DNA from: Bacteroidaceae bacterium
GTDB taxonomy: Bacteria > Bacteroidota > Bacteroidia > Bacteroidales > Bacteroidaceae
Length of the DNA: 62,305 nucleotides
Assembly (NCBI GenBank): GCA_017398805.1
Contig: JAFQEZ010000054.1
Coordinates: 1-62,305 of the forward strand
Direction: 5' to 3'
Shown here one piece after another: positions 5,346 through 62,305 of this stretch. Position numbers and translations under genes: made by a program. The notes below the pieces were generated by a model. The model was not told the origin of the DNA, made no database searches, and saw only the letters and a list, made by a program, of their open reading frames with translations. Within the stretch, counting starts at the first letter, position 1, and each line of letters begins with the position of its first letter.

Positions 5346-6592
5346 ACAGCATAGAAGAACCGCTTACATTATATGCCCTCAACAACATGGTGCGTGGTGT
5401 CATAAATGATGGGATGCCGTTGCGCTATTGGGTGACAGGCGAACTGAGCGAGGTGCGCGAGGCGTCGAACGGTCACTGTTATATTGAGCTGGTGCAGCGC
5501 GATGAGGTCACTAATGAACTTGTGGCAAAGGCGCGCGGAACTGTGTGGTCGCGCATATATACTCTGCTGCGTCCTTACTTCCTTGAACAGACGGGGCAAC
5601 CGTTTGCTGCAGGGTTGAAGGTGCTGCTGCAGGTGACTGTGGGCTTCCATGAACTGTACGGCTATGCACTCGATGTCTGTGACATTGAGCCTGCATATAC
5701 CGTGGGTGACATGGCACGCCAAAGGATGCTTGTAATCAAGCGTCTTACCGAGGAGGGTGTAATCGACCTCAACAAGGAACTGCCGTTTCCGCTGCTTCCG
5801 CAGCGTGTGGCTGTTATTTCCTCCTCTACAGCAGCCGGTTATGGTGATTTCTGTGACCAGCTGCAGGGTAATCGCTACGGTTTTGTATTCTATCCTCATC
5901 TGTTCCCTTCGCCAATGCAGGGCAGTGGAGTGGAGCAGGGTATAATTGATGCGCTTGACTGCATTGCACAGGATGTTGATATGTGGGATGTGGTGGTGAT
6001 AATACGCGGTGGAGGTGCCACGAGCGAACTCAGTTGCTTCGATACGTATGATCTGGCAAACAACTGTGCGCAGTTCCCTCTGCCCATAATAACAGGAATT
6101 GGTCATCAACGCGATGAGAGTGTGCTGGACATTGTTGCGCATACAAGGGCAAAGACCCCCACAGCGGCAGCCGAACTGCTGATACATGCGATGCTTGAGC
6201 AGGGTGCATTCGTTGAGAATGCAAGGCAGGAGATAGCAACGGCAGTGCGTATGCGCATAGATGCTGAGAAGCAGCGTATGAGCGGTATATCGGCGCGTAT
6301 ACCGGTGAGCGCGACTCTTTGCCTGCAGAACGAGAAGATGCGTATGCAACCGCTTGCACAGAGGCTGTCGACAGCCGCGGAGTTTTTCTTGAAAGAGCAG
6401 CATCATAGAGTGGAACTGTTGAAGGAGAAGGCGGACGCCGCATCTCCGCAACATATACTCTCGTTGGGCTATAGTATAACCCGTGTAAACGGGAAGGCTG
6501 TGCGAACGGTGGATGAGATAGTCCCCGGCGATGAGGTGGTGACTGTTGTTGCCGGCGGCGAGTTTACAAGTATTGTAAAAAAGGAAAAATAA
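5342..6592 (+). CDS. xseA: Exodeoxyribonuclease VII large subunit
   Basis: A 416-residue large subunit of exonuclease VII, which with XseB degrades single-stranded DNA in both directions during repair. The N-terminal OB-fold ([21 protein letters not shown] near residues 22-42) is followed by the nuclease domain with [15 protein letters not shown], the conserved [17 protein letters not shown] and [12 protein letters not shown], then a coiled-coil region and a C-terminal [13 protein letters not shown]. Start placed at the ATG at 5342, which overlaps the mnmA stop as ATGA; a further upstream ATG would lengthen the overlap. xseB follows 10 bases later, so mnmA-xseA-xseB form an operon. Confidence 0.95.
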
Positions 6593-6602
6593 AGAATACA
6601 AT

Positions 6603-6806
6603 ATGGAGAATATGAGTTACACACAGGCGGTTGCACGTCTTGAGGAGATTATGGGCATTGTGCAGGGCGGCAAGATTGATGTCGATGAACTGTCGGGGCT
6701 TTTGAAGGAGGCTACGGAACTGCTCCGCTTCTGCAATGCAAAACTTTACAAGGTCGACGAGGAGGTGAAGCGCTTGCTTGACGAAATGAACGGCGAGAAT
6801 GGTTGA
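6603..6806 (+). CDS. xseB: Exodeoxyribonuclease VII small subunit
   Basis: A 67-residue partner of XseA. The family signature is visible as SYTQAVARLEEIMGIVQGGK, followed by a second helix DELSGLLKEATELLRFCNAKL and a charged C-terminal helix; together these make the small helical hairpin that binds the XseA coiled coil. It lies directly downstream of xseA, as expected. A second in-frame ATG three codons downstream is an alternative start. Confidence 0.95.
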   Translation: MENMSYTQAVARLEEIMGIVQGGKIDVDELSGLLKEATELLRFCNAKLYKVDEEVKRLLDEMNGENG

Positions 6807-6905
6807 TATGTTTGCTTTTACCACTTAGAGTGCATTACATTCTTTTTGTTGTGTTTTCTCTTTTCATTCAAAATGTGTATCTTCGCGCAACGAAAAGAAA
6901 ACTAT

Positions 6906-7931
6906 ATGGAAATGGAAACATTGGATTGGTCAAATCTTGGTTTCGGTTATCGCAAGACCGACTGCAACGTGCGCTGTGTATATAAGGACGGTGCATGGGG
7001 CGAGGTTCAGGTATGTACCGAAGAAAACATATCGCTGCATATGGCAGCAACGTGTCTGCACTACGGTCAGGATGCCTTTGAGGGCTTGAAAGCCTTCCGT
7101 GGCAGGGATGGCAAGGTGCGTATCTTCCGCCTCGAGGCAAACGCCGAGCGTCTGCAGAGCAGCTGCGACGGCATAATGATGCCACGTGTGAGCACAGAAC
7201 TCTTCCGCGAAATGGTGACAAAGGTGGTTGCGTTGAACGAACGCTTTGTGCCTCCTTATGAGAGCGGTGCATCGCTTTATATACGTCCGCTGCTCATAGG
7301 CACGAGCGCGCAGGTGGGTGTGAACCCGTCGAAGGAGTATCTGTTTGTGATATTCGTTACTCCTGTAGGCCCTTACTACAAGGCTGGCTTTGCTGTGAAC
7401 AACTGCGTGATATTCCGTGACATTGACCGTGCTGCACCGCTCGGTACAGGACGTTTCAAGGTGGGCGGAAACTATGCTGCCGGAATGAGAGCGAGCTACG
7501 CCGCGCATGATCAGGGATATGCGTGCGAGATATATCTTGATGCAAAGGAGAAAAAGTATATCGATGAGTGCGGTGCAGCCAACTTCATTGGAATAAAGGA
7601 TAATTGTTACATAACACCAAAGTCTACCTCGATTCTTCCGTCGATAACAAACAACAGTCTTATGCAGATTGCACGCGACATGGGCTTGACCGTGGAGCAG
7701 CGTCCTGTGCCCGAGGAGGAACTCTCTACATTTGAGGAGGCAGGTGCATGCGGTACTGCGGCAGTGATTTCGCCCATAGGCCGCATTGACGATGTGGAGC
7801 AGGGCAAGAGCTATGTGATTGCCAAGGATGGGAAACCCGGTCCGGTGCTTACTTCGCTCTACGAGAGATTGCGTGCGATACAGTATGGCGATGTAGCAGA
7901 TAGTTATGGTTGGGTAACTATTGTAGAATAA
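6906..7931 (+). CDS. ilvE: Branched-chain amino acid aminotransferase
   Basis: A 341-residue PLP-dependent class IV aminotransferase that makes or degrades Leu, Ile and Val with glutamate/2-oxoglutarate. Seen: [16 protein letters not shown] (residues 51-66), substrate loop YIRPLLIGT, the PLP lysine candidate K185 in [13 protein letters not shown], and the C-terminal [10 protein letters not shown] loop. Start set at the ATG at 6906 ([15 protein letters not shown]); the in-frame sequence before it reads as leader. A -7-like TATCTTCG is seen at 6878-6885. trmB follows eight bases after the stop. Confidence 0.95.
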
Positions 7932-50767: not shown

Positions 50768-50931
50768 CACTATCTTTGCTGATAAATCAGCGAAAATAGG
50801 CTGCGCTCGTTGCGTAACGCTCAAACAAGTTTGACGTTCCACTCGCTTGCACTATCTTTGCTGATAAATCAGCGAAAATAGGCTGCGCTCGTTGCGTAAC
50901 GCTCAAACAAGTTTGACGTTCCACTCGCTTG
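50768..50931 (+). repeat. Tandem 82-bp duplication before mutS2
   Basis: Two essentially identical 82-bp units (50768-50849, 50850-50931) begin CACTATCTTTGCTGATAAAT and are followed by a partial third start. Each carries three palindromes: GCTGATAAATCAGC, GCGTAACGC and TCAAACAAGTTTGA. The unit end provides the -33 box of a promoter whose -7 box opens the next unit, so the duplication multiplies a promoter. Confidence 0.9.
50830..50860 (+). promoter_or_regulatory. Upstream mutS2 promoter copy
   Basis: TTTG (50830-50833), 19 bases, TATCTTTG (50853-50860): an exact match to the Bacteroidota consensus. The palindrome GCTGATAAATCAGC begins right after the -7 box, where an operator would overlap the transcription start. 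Confidence 0.7.
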
Positions 50932-50942
50932 CACTATATTTG
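50912..50942 (+). promoter_or_regulatory. Proximal mutS2 promoter
   Basis: TTTG (50912-50915), 19 bases, TATATTTG (50935-50942), 26 bases before the mutS2 ATG. The palindrome found after the upstream copy is absent here. A GGAGG at 50952-50956 resembles a Shine-Dalgarno sequence, unusual in this window. Confidence 0.8.
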
Positions 50943-50967: not shown

Positions 50968-53481
50968 ATGATATACCCTCAGAATTTTGAATCAAGGATA
51001 GAGTTTGACGCAGTGCGCCGTATGCTCAAGGAGCAGTGCCTGTGTCAATTGGGCAGGGAACGTGTCGATGATATGCAGTTCCTTACCGACTTTACGGCAG
51101 TCGACACGCGCCTGAACGAGGTTGTGGAGTTTGTGCGTATTATGCAGGTAGAAGAGGGTTTCCCGTCGGATTTCTTCTTCGACGTGCGCGAACCGTTGCA
51201 GCGTATACGCATCGAGGGTATGTACATGGGTGCCGAGGAACTTTTTGCCCTGCGCCGTTCGCTCGATACGATAGGACGTATCCTCTCTTTGTTGCGCAAG
51301 CAGAGCGGTGATGCAGCCGATGGCGATGACAAACCGCTTTATCCATTTCTCAGGGCTTTGGCCGGTGATGTGGAGGCATTTCCACGGATAATCCGTGACA
51401 TTGATTCCATAATAGACAAGTTCGGCAGCGTCAAGGACAGTGCTTCGCCCACATTGGCACGCATACGCAGTGAACTGTCGCGTACATCGGGCAGCATATC
51501 ACGCACCCTTAACAGCATACTGCGCCGTGCGCAGGCCGAGGGACTCGTGGAGAAGGATGCATCGCCCACGATGCGCGACGGCCGTCTGGTAATTCCTGTA
51601 GCCCCCGCGCTCAAGCGCAAAATGGGCGGTATTGTGCACGATGAATCGGCAACCGGCAAGACCGTCTTCATAGAACCGGCCGAGGTTGTTGAGGCAAATA
51701 ACCGCATACGTGAACTCGAGGCCGAAGAGAAGCGCGAGATAATAGCCATTCTATCGGCATTTTCCGCCGAACTGCGTCCGCAGGTTCCTTCACTTCTGCA
51801 GGCATACGATTTTCTCGGTGAAATGGACTTTATCCGTGCAAAGGCCGAGGTTGCCATGCGCATGGATGCAATCAAACCCTCTCTTGTAAACCGTCCCTTG
51901 ATTGACTGGGGTGCAGCCTATCATCCGCTGCTCGAGTTCTCGCAGCGCAAGCACGGGCGCAGGATGTCGCCGCTTGATATTGAACTTGACGGGGAGCGCC
52001 GCATTCTGCTCATTTCAGGCCCCAATGCCGGCGGAAAGTCGGTCTGCCTCAAGACTGCAGGCCTCCTGCAATATATGTTGCAGTGCGGTATGCTCATCCC
52101 GGTCCATGAACGCAGCCGTGCAGGCCTCTTCAGGAGCCTCTTCATCGATATCGGCGACCAGCAGAGCATCGAGGATGATCTGAGTACCTATTCCAGTCAT
52201 CTGCTCAACATGAAGCATACTTTGCGCAACTGCGACAAGCAGTCACTGATACTCATCGATGAGTTCGGTGGCGGAACAGAACCGCTCATAGGTGCCGCAA
52301 TAGCCGAAGCTTTGCTCAAGCGTTTCAATGAGCGCGGAGCTTACGGAATAATCACTACACATTATCAGAATCTCAAACATTTTGCCGATTCCACTCCCGG
52401 TATTGTCAACGGAGCAATGCTCTACGACCGCGGCGAGATGCGTCCGTTCTTCCAGTTGCAGATAGGCAACCCCGGTTCGTCATTCGCTGTGGAGATTGCA
52501 CGCAAGATTGGCCTTCCCGAGGAGGTCATTGCCGATGCATCGCAGATAGTGGGCAGCGACTATATACAGTCCGACAAATACCTGCAGGATATTGTGCGCG
52601 ACAAACGCTACTGGGAGAGCAAGCGCAAGACCGTACATCAGAAGGAGAAGGAACTCGATGAGATGATTGGTACAGTGCAGGAACAGGGCGATGAACTCAA
52701 GAAGAGCCGCAAGCAGATACTCAAGGAGGCACGCGAAGAGGCAGAGCGTCTGTTGCGCGAGGCGAATGCAAAGATAGAGAACACCATACGCACGATTGTA
52801 GAGGCCAAGGCCGAGAAGGAGCGCACACGTCAGGCGCGTCAGGAACTGAGCGACTTCAGCAAACAACTTGAGGAACTTGCACGGGAGAAACAGCAGATGC
52901 AGACCGACCGTGAGATGGCAAAGATTCTTGCACGTCAGGAGCGCAAGAAGAACGGCAAGAAAGAGAAAAAAAACACGGCACAGCAGGGTGCAGAGCAACG
53001 TCCGGAACCTAAACTGCCACAGATTGAACCCGGTATGCATGTGCGCATTGCAGGGCAGCAGGTCGTGGGTGAGGTTATGTCGGTGGGCAAGTCAGGTGCG
53101 ACAGTCCGTTTTGGTGCAATAAAGTCTACGATATCACTTGACAGACTCCAGCCGTGTGAAGCGCCCAAAGCCGAAGTGCGGAAGGTCTCTTTCCTTAGCA
53201 GTGATACTCAGGAACAACTTCACCGTAAGCGCCTCGAGTTCAAATCCGATATCGACATACGTGGTATGCGCGGCGAAGAGGCTGTGCAGGCCATAGGCTA
53301 TTTCCTTGACGATGCAGTAGTTTGCAACGTACACCGGTTGCGCATACTCCATGGCACAGGCAACGGCATCCTGCGCACGCTCATACGCCAATATCTCAGC
53401 ACCATGCCGTTTGTGAAGACATTCCACGACGAGCATGTCCAGTTCGGCGGCGCAGGAATAACGATTGTGGAACTGGAGTGA
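50968..53481 (+). CDS. mutS2: Endonuclease MutS2
   Basis: An 837-residue MutS paralogue. Residues 1-300 core/lever, ATPase with Walker A ISGPNAGGKSVCLKTAGL and Walker B LILIDEFGGGTEPLIGAAIA, a long charged coiled coil (RDKRYWESKRKTVHQKEKEL onward), a KOW-like segment (PGMHVRIAGQQVVGEVMSV) and the C-terminal Smr nuclease domain (DIRGMRGEEAVQAIGYFL, RILHGTGNGILRTLIRQYL). It is proposed to suppress recombination or rescue collided ribosomes, depending on species. The hairpin terminator follows. Confidence 0.96.
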   Translation: MIYPQNFESRIEFDAVRRMLKEQCLCQLGRERVDDMQFLTDFTAVDTRLNEVVEFVRIMQVEEGFPSDFFFDVREPLQRIRIEGMYMGAEELFALRRSLDTIGRILSLLRKQSGDAADGDDKPLYPFLRALAGDVEAFPRIIRDIDSIIDKFGSVKDSASPTLARIRSELSRTSGSISRTLNSILRRAQAEGLVEKDASPTMRDGRLVIPVAPALKRKMGGIVHDESATGKTVFIEPAEVVEANNRIRELEAEEKREIIAILSAFSAELRPQVPSLLQAYDFLGEMDFIRAKAEVAMRMDAIKPSLVNRPLIDWGAAYHPLLEFSQRKHGRRMSPLDIELDGERRILLISGPNAGGKSVCLKTAGLLQYMLQCGMLIPVHERSRAGLFRSLFIDIGDQQSIEDDLSTYSSHLLNMKHTLRNCDKQSLILIDEFGGGTEPLIGAAIAEALLKRFNERGAYGIITTHYQNLKHFADSTPGIVNGAMLYDRGEMRPFFQLQIGNPGSSFAVEIARKIGLPEEVIADASQIVGSDYIQSDKYLQDIVRDKRYWESKRKTVHQKEKELDEMIGTVQEQGDELKKSRKQILKEAREEAERLLREANAKIENTIRTIVEAKAEKERTRQARQELSDFSKQLEELAREKQQMQTDREMAKILARQERKKNGKKEKKNTAQQGAEQRPEPKLPQIEPGMHVRIAGQQVVGEVMSVGKSGATVRFGAIKSTISLDRLQPCEAPKAEVRKVSFLSSDTQEQLHRKRLEFKSDIDIRGMRGEEAVQAIGYFLDDAVVCNVHRLRILHGTGNGILRTLIRQYLSTMPFVKTFHDEHVQFGGAGITIVELE

Positions 53482-53569: not shown

Positions 53570-53599
53570 TTGCCAAAGTGTAATATTGTCGTATCTTTG
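53570..53599 (+). promoter_or_regulatory. Promoter inside degenerate repeat 1
   Basis: TTG (53570-53572), 19 bases, TATCTTTG (53592-53599). Expected start is about 53605, so the transcript would open with the last repeat bases and then the spacer, giving a short 5' end for the spacer crRNA. Confidence 0.55.
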
Positions 53600-53646
53600 A
53601 AATATCGGAAACAGCCCGTGGGTGAACAACTCCAGCGGTAATGTGG

Positions 53647-53676
53647 TTGTGATTTGCTTTCAATTTAGTATCTTTG
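53647..53676 (+). promoter_or_regulatory. Promoter inside intact repeat 2
   Basis: TTG (53647-53649), 19 bases, TATCTTTG (53669-53676). Same geometry as in repeat 1; transcription would run into the 70-base tail and the terminator shared with cas2. Confidence 0.5.
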
Positions 53677-53692
53677 AAATATCGGAAACAGT

Positions 53693-53763: not shown

Positions 53764-53795
53764 GAAAATCCAGTCTTTTGCAAGGCTGGATTTTC
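53764..53795. terminator. Bidirectional terminator between cas2 and the array
   Basis: GAAAATCCAG/CTGGATTTTC stem with an inner CTT/AAG pair; A and T runs on both sides. It can end the cas operon on the minus strand and crRNA transcripts on the plus strand. Confidence 0.88.
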
Positions 53796-53800
53796 GCGTT

Positions 53801-55062
<1,262 letters not shown>

Positions 55063-55084
55063 AAGCAATAGTCTTGATTGTATG

Positions 55085-56080
55085 TTATTTCTTATTCAGC
55101 CTTTTTTGCTCTTTCTCGAAGTTTTCTATAAAATGTAGCTCTACCGGTGACAAACTCTCGAGTGTTCGCTCCTTGAATTTATCGTACTCTGTATTTGCTT
55201 TTAGTTTTGCAACCTCGGCAGAAATAGTTCCAGCGTGTGTCAAAAGTTCTTTGCCCGATAATTTGAGGAAATCGTCCAATTTCTGAATCCAGTCCTTCAT
55301 ATACATTGGGGTGTGGCTCTTTGCCTGCAGTTCTGCAAAATCCAGATAAAGGTTCACAATGCGGTTTAGGATGTCCAGTTCTTCTGTCGTTAGATAATTC
55401 TTTGCAAATTCGGCATCGTTTTTCTTTGGGAATTGCCCTGTCCAAGTAGTAAGCCCCATAAAATCCTTGTTTGCATCGGCTCTGTCGTAAATGATTTCAG
55501 CTGCAGTGTGCCCGTGAACAGAGTAGTGCATCTTATTCTGTACTGTAGCAAAGAATCTTTTTGTGGCTTCTGTTTGTGGGTCGTAATCGATGCTTAGGGC
55601 ATATATTTCCAGGACTTTCCGATAGAAAATTTTCTCGGATGAGCGGATATCGCGTATGCGTGAAAGGAGCTCGTCAAAATAATTGCCGTTGCCTGCATTT
55701 TTCAGCAGTTCATCGTTTAGAACAAATCCTTTTATCAGATATTCTTTCAGCACTTGTGTTGCCCAAATGCGGAATTGCACTCCGCGGTGGGACTTTACAC
55801 GATAACCAACGCTAATTATCATATCAAGGTTGTAATATGCAACTTGATACACTTTGCTGTCGGTAGCAGTTGTTGCAAAAAATGCAACAACTGCATTTTG
55901 CTCTAACTCTCCATCTTCAAAGATGTTCTTTATGTGCCTTGAAATGGTAGATTTGTTACGCTGAAATAACTCTGCCATTTGGTCGGCTGTTAGCCAAACA
56001 GTGTCATTGGCAAGTGTTACTTCTATTTTGTTTTCTCCATCTTGAGTCTGGTAGAGAATGATTTGTCCTTTATGCTCCAT
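55085..56080 (-). CDS. RhuM-family protein embedded in the cas operon
   Basis: A 331-residue member of the RhuM (virulence-associated, Salmonella SPI-3) family. N-terminal winged/HTH region: ANDTVWLTADQMAELFQRNK and STISRHIKNIFEDGEL (about 27-65), then the family core VYQVAYYNLDMIISVGYRVK, SHRGVQFRIWATQVLKEYLI, and YSVHGHTAAEIIYDRADANK followed by DFMGLTTW. The C-terminus is a charged helix. Biochemical function of the family is unknown; homologues are often seen beside restriction-modification genes. It starts one base after the cas9 stop and ends 22 bases before cas1, so it is co-transcribed with the cas genes. It is not a standard II-C component. Confidence 0.92.
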   Translation of the reverse strand: MEHKGQIILYQTQDGENKIEVTLANDTVWLTADQMAELFQRNKSTISRHIKNIFEDGELEQNAVVAFFATTATDSKVYQVAYYNLDMIISVGYRVKSHRGVQFRIWATQVLKEYLIKGFVLNDELLKNAGNGNYFDELLSRIRDIRSSEKIFYRKVLEIYALSIDYDPQTEATKRFFATVQNKMHYSVHGHTAAEIIYDRADANKDFMGLTTWTGQFPKKNDAEFAKNYLTTEELDILNRIVNLYLDFAELQAKSHTPMYMKDWIQKLDDFLKLSGKELLTHAGTISAEVAKLKANTEYDKFKERTLESLSPVELHFIENFEKEQKRLNKK

Positions 56081-56081
56081 A

Positions 56082-59000
56082 TTAGTAGCCTATTTTAGTA
56101 ATGTTGCCTAATCTGTCAACTTTGACAGGAATGCATACCTCTTTAATCATTTCACCGGTTATTGCACGTTCCATTTTGTTTAAAGATGAAAATTCAACTT
56201 TGTCTATAATCGAACTTGCAACATTTGCTTTTATATAAAAGCATTGATTGCCTGATGATGATACCATTTTGTATAATTGTTCAACATCTAATGGGTTGTA
56301 GATGTATCCATTTTTCTTTTCTTCTTCTGTTGGTACATATACCAAATCATTGGGGGATAATACAAATATTGGTTTGTTGCCATCGTTGTCTGCCGGTGCA
56401 GGTGGCAATCCTTGTTTTAACCTTTCTATAACAATGTTCAATGGTATTGTTGCAAATTTCCTTTCTTTTGTAAACTCGCCAGTACACTTGTCTATTTTCT
56501 CAATTTCATAAATGGCAAAATAGAGATTGGTTCCTTTGGCTGCTTCAACGAATTTTGTTGATTTGTTATCCTTTTTGCCGATTGCAAATTTCTCGGCTTT
56601 TTCATATACTCGTACTTTATGTATTGGCTGATGGAATTTCCCATCGTTTAGCACAATGATATTTTTGTTCATTTCGTCAATACCGTCGGGCGAGAATGCC
56701 AATTTAGGATCATTATCTTTTAGCTCTAAATGGCGTAGCAATATTTTTTGTATTCCGGTATCGGTAATGCTTTCTTCAATCTTCTTTTTATCAAAACTTG
56801 TATCAATTGATTTTCTTGTTGCAAAGAACCTCTCCTTTGTCTCTTTGGTGAAATAGTAGACCTTGACTTTTGAAGGGTTAATGTCTTGCCAAACATCTTT
56901 GTTCTCTTCAAGGTATTTCTTTATTTTCTTTACATCATATCCCTCTTTTAGAAGTTCTTGTAATTTATACTTGAACTCCTTGTTGACTATTCGTGAAGGA
57001 TTCTTTATGGCTTCATTCAAAGAGACCTCTTTTATTTTGCGCAGGTTTACCTCGCCAAAAACGGTGTCTTTATGCATTGGCTTACGTATAGCCCAATTGC
57101 AACCGCTTTGTTTGGCTGGTTTCTTTTTCCCGTCCTCTATACGTGTATATGTGTTTGTCGCTTTGTTTATTATGCGTAAGTTTTGTTTGAAGCTGACAAT
57201 GATATCATTGATGGTCTGATATACATCTTGTGTGAATGTGTCCCAAGGCTTCTTTATTGTCCATTTGTAGTTGCCGGTTTCTTCTTTAATCTTGTCACAA
57301 AGTTGCTTCTGCAAATCGTGACGGGATATTTTTGATTTTACACTTGCAGCTTCATTGTTCAGGTAGTTGACTATGTTCCTGTTGGCACATGCAATGACAA
57401 TGGCGTCCATCGCGTGATGGCGGTGGTCAATACGTTTTTTGTTGAAGCCCCTTTGTGACTCCAGAGGCATCGATGGTATTTCATGCCCGTTTGCACTTTT
57501 GGTCGTAAATTGCGCTGTGTCCAGTATCTTGTTCAAACGCATGAAACGAGGTAGTATAATCCTGTTCCAAACATCGTTTATACCCCAGTCCTTTTTTAGT
57601 CTGTCGGTAATGCCACCGGTGCAGGTTATTACATTCTTGGAGATAGCCTCTTCTTCACCTTCTTCCCGTACTATGTTTGATAATAGGCTTTTTACAACCT
57701 TGCTTATGTATCGGCTGTCATTCAGTTGTCGGGCAATGAAATCTTCGGGTATTGTCTCCATCATAAGCTTGCGCATCTTTACCCTGTTCTGGCTGTAATT
57801 GTCTTTTATAAATTGCTCATATTCGCCAACAGTGAAGATCTTAACAACCTTGCCGTTTGGTAGTTCAACTTTTCGCCCACTTTCCTCTTTGATGAATTCA
57901 AAGCCTAATCGTCTATCCTTTAATTTGTTAATTTCGGACTCACAAATGACCTTGTTCGATAGGGAATCGTCGAAATAACGCGACTGTGGAATTATATGCT
58001 CTATTTCATATGCCGGCGTGAACAATTTAGCCAATGGTATCGGTTGGCCGGTGTATGGTGAACGGTATTTCTGTTCTAGCCATAGCTTATATCTTAAGAC
58101 TTCGCTCCTTGTTGGTTGTTTCTTATTGTCGTTTTCTTTGAACTTCTTTAAAATAGTTTCAATCTCTTCAGGAAGATTGCTTGTTGAGTTCAGAACTCCA
58201 TCTTCATATATGCGAAGTATTTCTTGTTGGCTTGGTGAATATGGGCGAACATTCTCAATCTCAAATTCCGGGTTTGCAAACTCCATCAGTAATGTTTTGA
58301 TGCGCAGGTTGGCATTCTCGTTCTCTAAAATCTGTTGCGTCATTTTTTTACGCTTGTCCGCAGGATTCTTCATCTCTCGTCCAAGCTCAATATGTATTTC
58401 GTCAATATTGCCGTGCTTTTTCCAAATATCCCGTACGGTGCGAAGTGTCTCAGTTATGACTTGCTCTACAATAGGGTTACGCAAGGAGTGTTGTTTAAAT
58501 GAGTCCAAATACCTTTGCAAATCTTCTGGTGTGTTCCATTTTGTAACATCCTTAGCTTCGGAATGGCGGTTGTATACAATGTAGCAGGCAAGCCAAAGCG
58601 GCAGGGCTTTGAAATCCGATATGTTTGTAAGGTTAAATGCCTTCTCCCTAACACGGTTCTTTATATTCTCGTCATATTCCCCTGTAACAATTCTATCAAT
58701 TCTTTCAAGAGTCTTCTTGTCTATGTTTGTCTGTGACCAATACTTGCCCATTCTCATTAATGGTAGCAACTTTTTAATGGCTTTGGCAGAATATGCACCA
58801 TATTCTTTCTGAAATGGTGGAAATTTCTGGAATGTAGTGGTGAAAGAATCCCCCAAACTATATGTATCTGCAAATTTTTGCAATGCTTTTGTCAGTTCCT
58901 GTTTATCTTCTACAGAGTACAAGATATGCCATAATCTTTCTTCTATTTCCGGTGTCAGGAATTCGGGCTCCACATTGGCCTTAGATAGGTGTGATAGTAT

Positions 59001-60572
59001 CTGTGCACGGGTTTCGTTACAGGGATATTTTTTATTGTCATCTTCTACATAATTCCAGCGATAGTCTTCGATGTTTTTCCTTATACCGAATGCAGGGTAT
59101 TTCAAAAATTCTTTCTGGTTTAGTTCCTTTTTCTCATTCAACCAATCGAATAAAGTTACATAATCATCTTCGTTACTCAAGAATTCTCTTGTAACATCTT
59201 CGTCATTGCTCAAGCCTTTCTTATAGATGCGTAAATTGCAGATGAATTGCCAAAGCCTGAACTCTTGATACAGAGGGTGGGATTTTGCAATACATTTTAT
59301 ACCGTAGCTCTTCTTCTCCCCTGTTTCCTTGTCAATAACGGTAGATTCTTCGTATTGACAATTGTCTATCAATGACTTTTTTGTCTTTAGAGGGCGCTGA
59401 TAGAATAATATGTCTTCAACAAACAGGTAAGTGAAATTTCTGTTTGCAATGTTCTGCCTGTAGGCTTCGTTGCTCGGATACAGTTCTTCTATACATTGGT
59501 TATATAATTCCCTGTCTTGTAGCTCGGTGTGGAACTCGGTTTGTTTTTCAATAATTTGGATTAATTCATCTTTGTAGAATTTCCGTTCTATTGTACGTAC
59601 TAATTTGCCTCGAACTTTCTGATTTGGGTTCTGGAGAATCGTATCGTATATATATGCGCCGACCGTCTTGCCGGAATGCTCGATGTCTGATTGCGTCCTT
59701 TCTTTGACAAGTGTCCAATCATCCTCCTTGGGAGAACGAAATGAACGTTTGACGTTACCCTCTTTATCCATTTTGGGCGTGCCGTCATCATTCAAATCTG
59801 TTGTGACAATAAACTCTTTGGTTTTGCCTTCCCAATCTAAATAGATGTTACTTGGGCGTCTGTATATCCAACCGTTCTCCAAATGGACGTTGTACCATAC
59901 ATCTTTTCCTTTTTTCTCTCCTGAATCTTCAACAGATACTACTTTTAAGGCAATATATTCTACTTTCTTATTGTTGTTTGTATTGTCTTCTTCGCCTCTT
60001 AACTGGTAATATCCACGTTTTTGGTTGAAATTCAATAATACCCAAGCCAACTCTTCTTTTGATATCTTTTGAGTCAGAGCTTTCTTACGTAAATAATAAA
60101 TTGTCCAATCGTATGGTATTTTCTTGTCTCTAAAGTCTGGATGTTGCGATTTGAAGTCTTGCAACATCTCATTGAAAGAACTCTGGAACAGGAAATGGTA
60201 TTTGCCTGTGCCATCCTTTGCCCAAGCTAATTTAGGCTCTTCCCCTTCTTTTATTTTTCCGTAGCGTGTTAGTGCCTGTGAATAGTGGACTGGCAGGAAA
60301 CCAATAGTGTCAAGAACTCTGTGCAGACGTTCTCTACGTTGTATGCCTCGTTCTATCAGATGCCTGACACCTCTTAGACGTGTTCTTTCGGCAGTCTGTG
60401 AAATTGTATTGCCACGGTCGAAATCGCCGAGAACAGCTGCGTCCATTGGAATGATGCGGCTACCGGCCGCCTCAATCCTCTTCAAAAGAAAACTGTCATC
60501 ATTCTTTTCTGCCAATAAAACAGCCCAGCCAATACTATTGGTACCTAAGTCCAACCCTAATATTCTTTTCAT
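56082..60572 (-). CDS. cas9: Cas9, type II-C, large Bacteroidales form
   Basis: A 1496-residue RNA-guided DNA endonuclease. RuvC-I ILGLDLGTNSIGWAVL with D8, arginine-rich bridge helix (ERTRLRGVRHLIERGIQRRE), RuvC-II IHIELGREM with E729, HNH YEIEHIIPQSRYFDDSLSN with H859 and N873/N882, RuvC-III DHRHHAMDAIVIA with H1053 and D1056. All catalytic residues are intact. Larger than most II-C proteins (~1000-1100) but near the Bacteroides form (~1436). I choose the ATG at 60572 (MKRILGLDLG): an upstream ATG at 60584 adds only four residues and would leave almost no 5' leader after the promoter. No csn2 or cas4 is present. Confidence 0.97.
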   Translation of the reverse strand: MKRILGLDLGTNSIGWAVLLAEKNDDSFLLKRIEAAGSRIIPMDAAVLGDFDRGNTISQTAERTRLRGVRHLIERGIQRRERLHRVLDTIGFLPVHYSQALTRYGKIKEGEEPKLAWAKDGTGKYHFLFQSSFNEMLQDFKSQHPDFRDKKIPYDWTIYYLRKKALTQKISKEELAWVLLNFNQKRGYYQLRGEEDNTNNNKKVEYIALKVVSVEDSGEKKGKDVWYNVHLENGWIYRRPSNIYLDWEGKTKEFIVTTDLNDDGTPKMDKEGNVKRSFRSPKEDDWTLVKERTQSDIEHSGKTVGAYIYDTILQNPNQKVRGKLVRTIERKFYKDELIQIIEKQTEFHTELQDRELYNQCIEELYPSNEAYRQNIANRNFTYLFVEDILFYQRPLKTKKSLIDNCQYEESTVIDKETGEKKSYGIKCIAKSHPLYQEFRLWQFICNLRIYKKGLSNDEDVTREFLSNEDDYVTLFDWLNEKKELNQKEFLKYPAFGIRKNIEDYRWNYVEDDNKKYPCNETRAQILSHLSKANVEPEFLTPEIEERLWHILYSVEDKQELTKALQKFADTYSLGDSFTTTFQKFPPFQKEYGAYSAKAIKKLLPLMRMGKYWSQTNIDKKTLERIDRIVTGEYDENIKNRVREKAFNLTNISDFKALPLWLACYIVYNRHSEAKDVTKWNTPEDLQRYLDSFKQHSLRNPIVEQVITETLRTVRDIWKKHGNIDEIHIELGREMKNPADKRKKMTQQILENENANLRIKTLLMEFANPEFEIENVRPYSPSQQEILRIYEDGVLNSTSNLPEEIETILKKFKENDNKKQPTRSEVLRYKLWLEQKYRSPYTGQPIPLAKLFTPAYEIEHIIPQSRYFDDSLSNKVICESEINKLKDRRLGFEFIKEESGRKVELPNGKVVKIFTVGEYEQFIKDNYSQNRVKMRKLMMETIPEDFIARQLNDSRYISKVVKSLLSNIVREEGEEEAISKNVITCTGGITDRLKKDWGINDVWNRIILPRFMRLNKILDTAQFTTKSANGHEIPSMPLESQRGFNKKRIDHRHHAMDAIVIACANRNIVNYLNNEAASVKSKISRHDLQKQLCDKIKEETGNYKWTIKKPWDTFTQDVYQTINDIIVSFKQNLRIINKATNTYTRIEDGKKKPAKQSGCNWAIRKPMHKDTVFGEVNLRKIKEVSLNEAIKNPSRIVNKEFKYKLQELLKEGYDVKKIKKYLEENKDVWQDINPSKVKVYYFTKETKERFFATRKSIDTSFDKKKIEESITDTGIQKILLRHLELKDNDPKLAFSPDGIDEMNKNIIVLNDGKFHQPIHKVRVYEKAEKFAIGKKDNKSTKFVEAAKGTNLYFAIYEIEKIDKCTGEFTKERKFATIPLNIVIERLKQGLPPAPADNDGNKPIFVLSPNDLVYVPTEEEKKNGYIYNPLDVEQLYKMVSSSGNQCFYIKANVASSIIDKVEFSSLNKMERAITGEMIKEVCIPVKVDRLGNITKIGY

Positions 60573-60595
60573 TGTAATAAGCATTTGTTCTTACG

Positions 60596-60627
60596 CAAAA
60601 ATATCTAATACTTGTTGCAAATCCAAA
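60596..60627 (-). promoter_or_regulatory. cas9 operon promoter
   Basis: On the minus strand TTTG (60624-60627 complement), 20 bases, TATTTTTG (60596-60603 complement): a full consensus match. The expected start is about 60588-60590, leaving ~16-18 bases to the chosen ATG. It overlaps the tracrRNA promoter. Confidence 0.72.
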
Positions 60628-60645
60628 TAAATATAAATACATTTG
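60615..60645 (+). promoter_or_regulatory. tracrRNA promoter
   Basis: TTG (60615-60617), 20 bases, TACATTTG (60638-60645). The expected start falls at about 60651, exactly where the anti-repeat begins. Confidence 0.72.
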
Positions 60646-60650
60646 CCGAA

Positions 60651-60733
60651 CTAAATGAAGCAAATCACAATAAGGATTATTCCGTTGTGAAAACATTAGG
60701 TTTGTCCCTCGTCCTTTAACGGGGGACTTTTTG
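60651..60733 (+). ncRNA. tracrRNA
   Basis: About 83 nt, divergent from cas9. The anti-repeat CTAAATGAAGCAAATCACAA (60651-60670) pairs with the array repeat: 11 bp perfect (GCAAATCACAA with TTGTGATTTGC), then nine more with two single-base bulges. Next comes a stem CACAA/TTGTG (60666-60670 and 60684-60688) capped by GGA/TCC, and finally a terminator stem GTCCCTCG/CGGGGGAC (60704-60711, 60720-60727; one G-U) followed by TTTTT. tracrRNA pairs with crRNA and recruits it to Cas9. The pairing fixes crRNA orientation in the array. Confidence 0.9.
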
Positions 60734-60883
60734 TTGATGCGATAAGATGTTCTTTATGTAGGTTCTGTAAATTACTCTCTCGGAGCAAGAACCACCTGAC
60801 AAATGATTATTGATTACTAATTTATAGTATCTCCATTTATATATAGCAGCTTTGGGATTTCTCCTCTTGCAATTGTTGGGCTA
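60734..60883. other. Gap between tracrRNA and pgeF
   Basis: 150 AT-rich bases with no gene. The only structure noted is a loose inverted pair GGTTCT (60761-60766)/AGAACC (60788-60793), too far apart and without a T-run to call as a terminator. Confidence 0.4.
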
Positions 60884-61672: not shown

Positions 61673-62305
61673 CTTTTTTTTGAGTTTGGCCTGTAATAGC
61701 CCACCCTTGTGGGTGCCCAAAAGAGAACAGTGCAAAGATGAAAGTGCAAAGAGTACTAACCGCGAAAACCGCAAAAAACGACTCCCTCCCGGCTAAGCCG
61801 TACTCCCTCTTCGAAGAGGGGGATTTTGAACACACTCGCCAACATTCGTTGCCCTTAATAGCCCTTAATGCCCTTTGTGCGTGGTGTTTAAAGGGCAGGC
61901 ACAAGACCAGCCCCTACATTGCACAAACCGCGATGCTGTCATTTTGAGCAAAGCGAAAAATCTCAAACTTTCATCTTTCATCTTTTAGGGCAGACACATC
62001 GGTCTGCCCCTACAGCGCACAAACCGCGGTTCTGTCATTTTGAGCAAAGCGAAAAATCTCAATTAACTTTCCACTTTGCACTTTGACAACACCGTCTAAT
62101 CGCAACCCGCAGGGCGTGACTTAAACTCCTCCCCTGCCTGAGGGGAGGTGCCAATTTACTGGCGGAGGGGTGGGAGTGCGACCTGCGACCTATTGCTGCC
62201 GGTGTCGTCGAAGTTGCTTTCGCAACTTTCAACTTTAACCCCACTGCGTGGGCTTGAACCTTGGCTGCGCTCGCTGTAAAAGCTCAAGTAAACTTGGCTT
62301 TCGCT
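61673..62305. repeat. Repeat-only region at the window end
   Basis: No gene. In order: a GCCCACCCTTGTGGGTGCCC module (61700-61719), AAAGATGAAAGTGCAAAG (61735-61752), an A/G-rich block with CTCTTCGAAGAGG (61809-61821), TAGCCCTTAATGCCC-type iterations (61858-61875), two copies of GTCATTTTGAGCAAAGCG (61939-61956; 62035-62052), GCAGACACATCGGTCTGCCC (61990-62009), a CCTGCCTGAGGGGAGG hairpin (62133-62148), and the inverse copy of the GCGAGCG module running off the end (62249-62305). Confidence 0.7.

Follow-up and report, generated by a model that had tools for sequence, protein, structure and literature searches.

Introduction

Why does a gene of the RhuM family lie between cas9 and cas1 in a CRISPR operon of a Bacteroidaceae bacterium? 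We have analysed this question on contig JAFQEZ010000054.1 of assembly GCA_017398805.1, whose full 62,305 nucleotides are called the window here. Known accessory genes of Cas9 systems are few, and passages of a 2025 classification paper state that more class 2 accessory proteins probably await discovery (PMC12669027). Our tentative answer, to which we give somewhat less than an even chance, is that RhuM may be an exchangeable anti-phage accessory, which would occupy a cargo slot that recurs between cas9 and cas1 and act as a guard or second-line effector. Such a slot would give the widespread RhuM family a tractable defence context.

Structure of the operon

The rhuM gene (55085..56080, minus strand) has an ATG start and encodes a RhuM-family protein of 331 aa with an HTH-like N-terminus and a PF13310 core. 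On the same strand it is preceded by type II-C cas9 (56082..60584; 1500 aa as listed; TIGR01865, E 3.6e-129, with RuvC_III and HNH_4) and followed by type II cas1 (54130..55062; ATG start; TIGR03639, E 7.8e-100) and cas2 (53801..54133; 110 aa; TIGR01573, E 1.6e-21). The cas9 start may instead be the ATG at 60572, MKRILGLDLGTN. The cas1 gene was listed from a TTG at 55068; the ATG at 55062 is likelier, and its ATGATAAA start recurs in four other loci (L089, L212, L213 and L214). The end of cas9 at 56082 leaves a gap of 1 nt before rhuM, the gap between rhuM and cas1 is 22 nt when cas1 is counted from the ATG at 55062, and cas1 and cas2 overlap by 4 nt. The first-pass annotation had placed rhuM between cas9 and cas1 on the same strand with gaps of 1 and 22, and these coordinates are exact.

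The operon is of type II-C in that cas9, cas1 and cas2 are present and neither csn2 nor cas4 is found among the four operon proteins, and in that a tracrRNA anti-repeat lies near cas9 and a CRISPR array with one spacer accompanies the genes. The predicted tracrRNA (60640..60735, plus strand, ends approximate) is divergent from cas9 and contains an anti-repeat at 60658-60670 and a terminator-like hairpin at 60704-60727. The array is minimal (53591..53692, plus strand; RF01362, 60.6 bits) and consists of a full 47-nt repeat (53646-53692), a partial 24-nt repeat (53591-53614) and a 30-nt spacer (53616-53645). When the same repeat was searched in 16 other loci, 15 gave 3 to 27 repeats in the examined stretch; L124, where the contig ends just past cas2, gave none. 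Two viral contigs, L216 and L217, match the spacer of the window at 30 of 30 positions, and a search for the two array repeat pieces found them in neither contig; the CRISPR system was therefore probably active against phages not long ago. In L216, the match lies inside a 598-aa ORF downstream of a 502-aa ORF, which we take to resemble a tail tape-measure protein.

The Bacteroides-type promoter consensus TTTG-N-TAnnTTTG precedes cas9 (60596..60627, minus strand) and does not occur inside the operon, between 53801 and 60584; in the whole window, the motif was observed 8 times against 2.04 expected. A sigma-70 scan was uninformative, with 21 sites against 21.0 in shuffled sequences. Considering that the single motif lies before cas9, it is likely that cas9, rhuM, cas1 and cas2 are co-transcribed. 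Directly 3' of cas2, a 14-nt inverted repeat (53764..53795, minus strand) may serve as the operon terminator, and a strict terminator scan listed no minus-strand site, this repeat included. Accordingly, the earlier statement that rhuM is co-transcribed before a single terminator agrees with the promoter pattern in its first part, and in its second part comes down to an inverted repeat that the strict scan does not return.

Two further repeats were seen in the window. A direct repeat at 50830-50942 carries TTTG-N-TAnnTTTG twice (matches at 50830 and 50912) upstream of an ORF at 50968-53481, presumably MutS2-like, and a 57-nt direct repeat at 61910-62062 is present in two copies, 96 nt apart and 93% identical.

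The RhuM protein

Residues 64-306 of RhuM align with positions 2-248 of the 252 positions of PF13310 (E 3.8e-111; 370.8 bits against a cut-off of 33.7). The gene is intact and has its family core over most of the profile, as had been proposed. The PADLOC model PDC-S05, a phage-defence candidate, matches over the full length (residues 3-327, E 1.6e-155). The HTH-like character ascribed earlier to the N-terminus is weakly supported, by three models that all stay under the Pfam cut-offs (HTH_11, E 0.015; HTH_38, E 0.019; HTH_17, E 0.11). With E values up to 10, the five Pfam matches of RhuM include neither a PIN family nor Bro-N (PF02498), and no PHROG family was returned in the PHROG scan. In a profile-profile comparison by hhalign, RhuM and Bro-N gave a collinear N-terminal alignment of 109 columns, at most suggestive, with a probability of 3.6% and E 0.012; considering this weak comparison and the unmatched profile, we rejected RhuM as a Bro-N member. 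Among solved structures, the single RhuM sequence gave no match and the RhuM profile gave one chance-level match (E 0.72), with no credible relative.

In an alignment of 82 RhuM proteins, 37 columns are invariant and 33 of these lie at residue 83 or beyond, including R143, R146, E149, D165, Q181, N182, T192, E195, K227 and N228; this distribution fits an active or ligand-binding core. In terms of average conservation, residues 83-290 reach 0.73 and the HTH segment (28-62) reaches 0.71. We therefore dropped the claim of higher conservation in the core than in the HTH part, since it is true for residues 83-200 (0.80 and 0.77) and fails for residues 201-290 (0.66) and overall; this made a defence accessory slightly less likely, and a regulator slightly more likely, in our judgement.

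With an HTH-like segment, RhuM could bind DNA and regulate the cas operon or the divergent promoters of tracrRNA and cas9, the latter being one role offered in the first-pass annotation. The segment, weakly matched as it is, is conserved to the same degree as the core, the promoter motif of cas9 and the tracrRNA candidate lie close together, and relatives of Bro-N, the other occupant of the slot, match phage anti-repressor families in PHROGs. However, the only inverted repeats found in 60540-60760 are two whose arms are separated by 116-127 nt, and no close-spaced palindrome was seen. An alignment of 19 upstream regions shows the tracrRNA as the conserved block, and loci without RhuM have it just as those with RhuM do. 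Moreover, the HTH segment is conserved in RhuM proteins of unrelated loci, indicating that it is not tuned to one operator. The regulatory role therefore found no support in the upstream region, and we consider it quite improbable. Its narrower form, an autoregulator with an operator near cas9, is disfavoured too, as neither a close-spaced palindrome nor a RhuM-specific conserved block was found.

Recurrence and frequency of the arrangement

Intact RhuM lies between cas9 and cas1 in nine loci from at least three genera, the window and eight further ones, with RhuM ORFs of 331-338 aa. These are the window, L087 and L091 of one genus (g1), L088 and L090 of a second (g9), L089 of a third (g14), L006 from a plasmid record of Phocaeicola massiliensis, and L012 and L036 from unclassified Bacteroidales MAGs. 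Accordingly, an insertion confined to one strain is rejected, and the arrangement is not restricted to this strain and its very close kin, the outcome that would have spoken against the earlier proposal.

The frequency of the arrangement was counted from a Cas1 search, in which 131 of 399 genomes of the family matched. Since L006, L012 and L036 were found via RhuM and L087-L091 were chosen for RhuM, frequencies are quoted solely from 89 of the first 90 Cas1 places listed (G253 and lower-scoring places left out), with ORFs in the slot called on the Cas1 strand only. In 76 of these 89 places, the gap between cas9 and cas1 is at most 96 nt and holds no insert, so that the expectation of type II-C loci normally lacking a gene here holds for most relatives; G172 has no Cas9 match on the examined stretch. 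An insert or remnant is present in 12 of the 89 slots, and each is either RhuM or Bro-N: RhuM is intact in five (G000, G012, G173, G186 and G277) and decayed in three (G103, G114 and G220), and Bro-N is intact in three (G273, G261 and G195) with a remnant in one (G096). In G114 (locus L116), a DDE transposase ORF adjoins the RhuM pieces.

Most close relatives of this RhuM live elsewhere, since only L012 and L036 adjoin cas genes among the best 80 loci when genome contigs were scanned for RhuM. Of 395 genomes sampled across the class, 84 carry this Cas1 and 61 carry RhuM (E up to 1e-30). Among the 84, Cas1 and RhuM occur on one contig in the genome of the window only, as counted by eye from contig numbers; cases split by a contig break and decayed copies escape such a count. 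By this sample, the arrangement seems confined to Bacteroidaceae and their near kin.

Outside the slot, RhuM matches stand in tandem at 8299-9680 of L210 (G267), roughly 1 kb upstream of cas9. L088, a locus with RhuM, carries a Bro-N fragment about 0.2 kb upstream of cas9 (7503-7820), which is 53% identical to the L093 Bro-N over residues 3-108.

In G863, which we take to be B. fragilis NCTC 9343, the slot holds a broken RhuM that belongs to a different lineage and shares 48% identity with the RhuM of the window, and this suggests that RhuM may have entered the slot between cas9 and cas1 at least twice. RhuM ORFs between cas1 and cas9 are already in print for the type II-C locus of B. fragilis, where two ORFs are described for the majority of 40 strains by Tajkarimi and Wexler (2017; PMC5704556); the legend of their Figure 2 puts two additional genes between cas2 and cas1. 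The broken gene in G863 would explain the two ORFs. Gene family and slot agree with those of the window, again in a type II-C operon of Bacteroidaceae, and the novelty claimed for RhuM in this position was accordingly overstated. In contrast to the loci analysed here, the passages of that paper mention no intact clade, no linkage to Cas9 and no sharing of the slot (PMC5704556). No other paper on RhuM in this slot was found among titles and abstract openings of mostly non-subscription literature.

Phylogeny of Cas9, Cas1 and RhuM

A quick LG tree of Cas9, with SH-aLRT support only, was built from 85 rows of at least 1000 aa out of 94 loci. In this tree, seven of the nine intact RhuM loci form one clade (SH-aLRT 100) together with L120, which has a deletion in RhuM, and L124, which has an N-terminal RhuM remnant. 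On the other hand, the intact RhuM of L036 and of L090 accompanies Cas9 proteins of two further lineages, about 31-32% identical to the main RhuM-linked type, giving three dissimilar Cas9 types in all. Six changes of the RhuM label (the nine loci and L120) are needed on the tree of Cas1, at least four of them forced by starred branches. The pair L088 and L108 is an example of a swap between cas9 and cas1, as their Cas1 proteins are practically identical, their Cas9 proteins are 32% identical, and RhuM is present in L088 only. Based on the single clade in the Cas9 tree and the six changes in the Cas1 tree, RhuM seems to have mostly stayed with one Cas9 clade while cas1 and cas2 were exchanged beneath it, and to have also reached two other Cas9 types. 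Shuffling of Cas9 in situ has already been described for II-C loci of Flavobacteriales in passages of the classification paper (PMC12669027).

The RhuM tree, built from 63 of 115 RhuM ORFs, places all nine cas-associated proteins in one supported clade of 13 rows together with four non-cas rows. The cas label needs three changes on this tree against a shuffled mean of 8.6, and none of 500 shuffles was as low. The expectation that RhuM phylogeny follows Cas9 is borne out for seven of the nine intact loci, and breaks down for L036 and L090 on their other Cas9 types and for L212, which has lost RhuM.

The linkage of RhuM to one Cas9 clade is an argument for reading it as a pro-CRISPR factor that would act with Cas9 of one clade and improve its binding, cutting or fidelity in the manner of PcrIIC1. 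PcrIIC1 is presented as a pro-CRISPR factor in a subset of II-C loci (work of Zhang et al. 2024, as cited in PMC13153721 and PMC12669027), and like rhuM it is an accessory gene there. A Cas9 helper would suit the seven intact loci, L120 and L124 in a single Cas9 clade with Cas1 varying beneath them, and the position of rhuM directly 3' of cas9. However, two intact RhuM genes sit beside Cas9 proteins only 31-32% identical to that type, L212 lies inside the clade and has no RhuM, and the family is also found beside restriction genes. PcrIIC1 itself is described as a predicted PIN-domain protein that binds a C-terminal helix of Cas9, whereas RhuM has no PIN match. An accessory role in interference, as suggested earlier, is therefore weakened in so far as it means a partner specific to Cas9, and we regard such a partner as rather unlikely.

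Loss, constraint and possible exchange of rhuM

We had predicted that a Cas9 of at least 70% identity would be accompanied by RhuM. Four new regions were fetched, and the prediction failed in the sole new complete case, L212 of G920 (71%), which weakens RhuM as an obligate partner of Cas9. L213 and L214, with Cas9 below 70%, are without RhuM as predicted, and L215 carries a partial Cas9 and is uninformative. L212 nests with L006, L089 and L120 (support 100/100), its gap between cas9 and cas1 is 26 nt, and RhuM has been lost. In L089, the motif TAATATATT stands both before and after rhuM, which makes loss through recombination between short repeats plausible. In L120, most of rhuM has been removed by an internal deletion and cas9, cas1, cas2 and the array are kept; RhuM is dispensable for operon persistence. 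Judging from the loci compared, the slot between cas9 and cas1 appears to have acquired and shed genes of this sort repeatedly. The matched operons of L006, L089, L120 and L212, with intact, deleted and missing contents, form a natural series in which the contribution of a CRISPR accessory could be assessed.

Between the window and L091, RhuM shows 42 non-synonymous and 149 synonymous differences (pN 0.054, pS 0.721). Each of the eight RhuM pairs compared has a pN far lower than its pS, although synonymous change is almost saturated in the majority of them and the values for L006 and L089 come from nine differences. By these substitution patterns, the RhuM sequence is under constraint. For the window and L091, pS is 0.41 in cas9, 0.44 in cas1 and 0.34 in cas2, and considering the value of rhuM, the rhuM allele may have been exchanged separately from the cas genes. 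The genes also appear to move together. When L006 (4350-11300) was compared with L089, identity in 150-nt bins across the operon was 92-100%, falling to 82-83% at the 3' end of cas9, and the flanks past the operon and array did not match, which points to a probable transfer of cas9, rhuM, cas1 and cas2 as one cassette.

Mobility and loss of this kind would be expected if RhuM and Bro-N were selfish or neutral cargo riding on well-expressed defence operons, with no CRISPR-related end. The patchy presence (5 intact in 89), the broken copies in G863 and G114, the near-identical operon between unrelated flanks in L006 and L089, and losses consistent with short direct repeats (L089 and L212) all agree with cargo. 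Constraint on the protein in all eight pairs speaks against it, and so do the confinement of the slot to two defence-candidate families and the link of RhuM to one Cas9 clade. Selfish or neutral cargo is, in our judgement, unlikely.

RhuM as a proposed exchangeable defence accessory

The families beside close relatives of RhuM that lie away from cas genes were tallied from the first 25 of 42 and of 45 listed, with several matches possible per protein and domains not assigned to individual proteins. The upstream tally covers 46 proteins (all 34 immediate neighbours found and 12 second neighbours, on either strand) and contains ResIII (5), SWI2_SNF2 (4), T1RH-like (4), Eco57I (4), HsdM (3), HSDR (3), HD-CE (2), Schlafen AlbA (2) and AbiH (1), together with housekeeping families. 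The downstream tally covers 35 proteins (25 of 37 immediate and 10 second neighbours, omitting 10 on the other strand and two on the same strand, L097 and L030); Fic/DOC accounts for 6 of the 35 and the remainder is mostly mixed. On an Aliarcobacter plasmid, rhuM overlaps hsdM. The remark of the first-pass annotation that RhuM-type genes often neighbour restriction-modification genes agrees with this overlap and with HsdM and HSDR upstream of the non-cas relatives.

Bro-N, the alternative occupant of the slot, corresponds to PADLOC PDC-S13, a phage-defence candidate. On plasmid pACLO of Arcobacter cloacae (L219, NZ_CP053834.1 4488-7261), a Bro-N gene whose protein is 45% identical to the Bro-N of the slot lies between cas4 and cas1b of a type I-B operon, which also has a gene for an ATP-binding protein between cas3 and cas4. 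Two other plasmid matches of Bro-N have no cas or restriction gene annotated within the examined stretch.

Based on these results, we return to RhuM as an exchangeable defence accessory. This reading draws on the fact that both families of the slot are phage-defence candidates in PADLOC and that all 12 filled slots among the 89 hold one or the other. It is also suggested by the restriction, Schlafen, AbiH and Fic/DOC neighbours of the non-cas relatives, by the low pN in eight pairs, by the company of three Cas9 types and several Cas1 lineages, by the concentration of invariant columns from residue 83 onwards (33 of 37), and by Bro-N directly before cas1 in the Arcobacter type I-B operon. Passages of Anantharaman et al. 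(2013) propose a toxin-domain role for RhuM in defence loci organised in layers (PMC3710099). On the other hand, most loci have no RhuM (76 of 89 hold no insert), and it has been deleted from some that otherwise look intact. Average conservation does not set the core apart, and the placement of seven of nine intact loci in one Cas9 clade would be explained just as well by a role linked to Cas9.

We infer a defence activity, a guard mode and each molecular step as follows. Read from the cas9 promoter, rhuM would be expressed whenever the CRISPR system is made. The HTH-like N-terminal part may sense phage or a DNA state, and the PF13310 core may perform a growth- or phage-blocking activity once first-line cutting falls short. 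A back-up effector had also been offered in the first-pass annotation, and RhuM may be one. Beside restriction-modification genes, RhuM would play the same guard part. In a bolder form, the junction of cas9 and cas1 in Bacteroidaceae II-C loci would be a docking site for interchangeable guards, RhuM and Bro-N, that sense phage once Cas9 has been blocked or evaded and then set off a second response; we regard this as a long shot. If it were true, CRISPR operons would carry plug-in back-up effectors as restriction operons do, and the principle would extend to a further CRISPR type with Bro-N before cas1 in type I-B.

Comparison with known systems and origin of RhuM

RhuM inside restriction-modification operons is already known, according to passages of PMC3710099. 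These operons share with the present one the family, the defence setting and the position directly after a core gene, but the partner there is not CRISPR-Cas9. The accessories Csx27, Csx28 and WYL of type VI, as presented in part of PMC13153721, are optional class 2 genes like RhuM, but differ from it in families, effectors and mechanisms. Accordingly, accessory genes in II-C loci, RhuM in restriction operons and RhuM once reported in the slot were known before. What we did not find in print is the intact clade linked to Cas9, the exchange of Cas1 around that clade, the repeated loss, and the slot shared with Bro-N.

A phage origin of RhuM is unsupported, as the phages collection gave no RhuM match at 60% identity or more, and a relative on the IMG/VR contig L197 does not settle the origin. 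This relative (6001-6981) is 80% identical to RhuM of the window and lies near the contig end, with a second RhuM fragment upstream of it. In the genome of the window, contig C76 carries a Bro-N match (41%) that adjoins a RhuM fragment.
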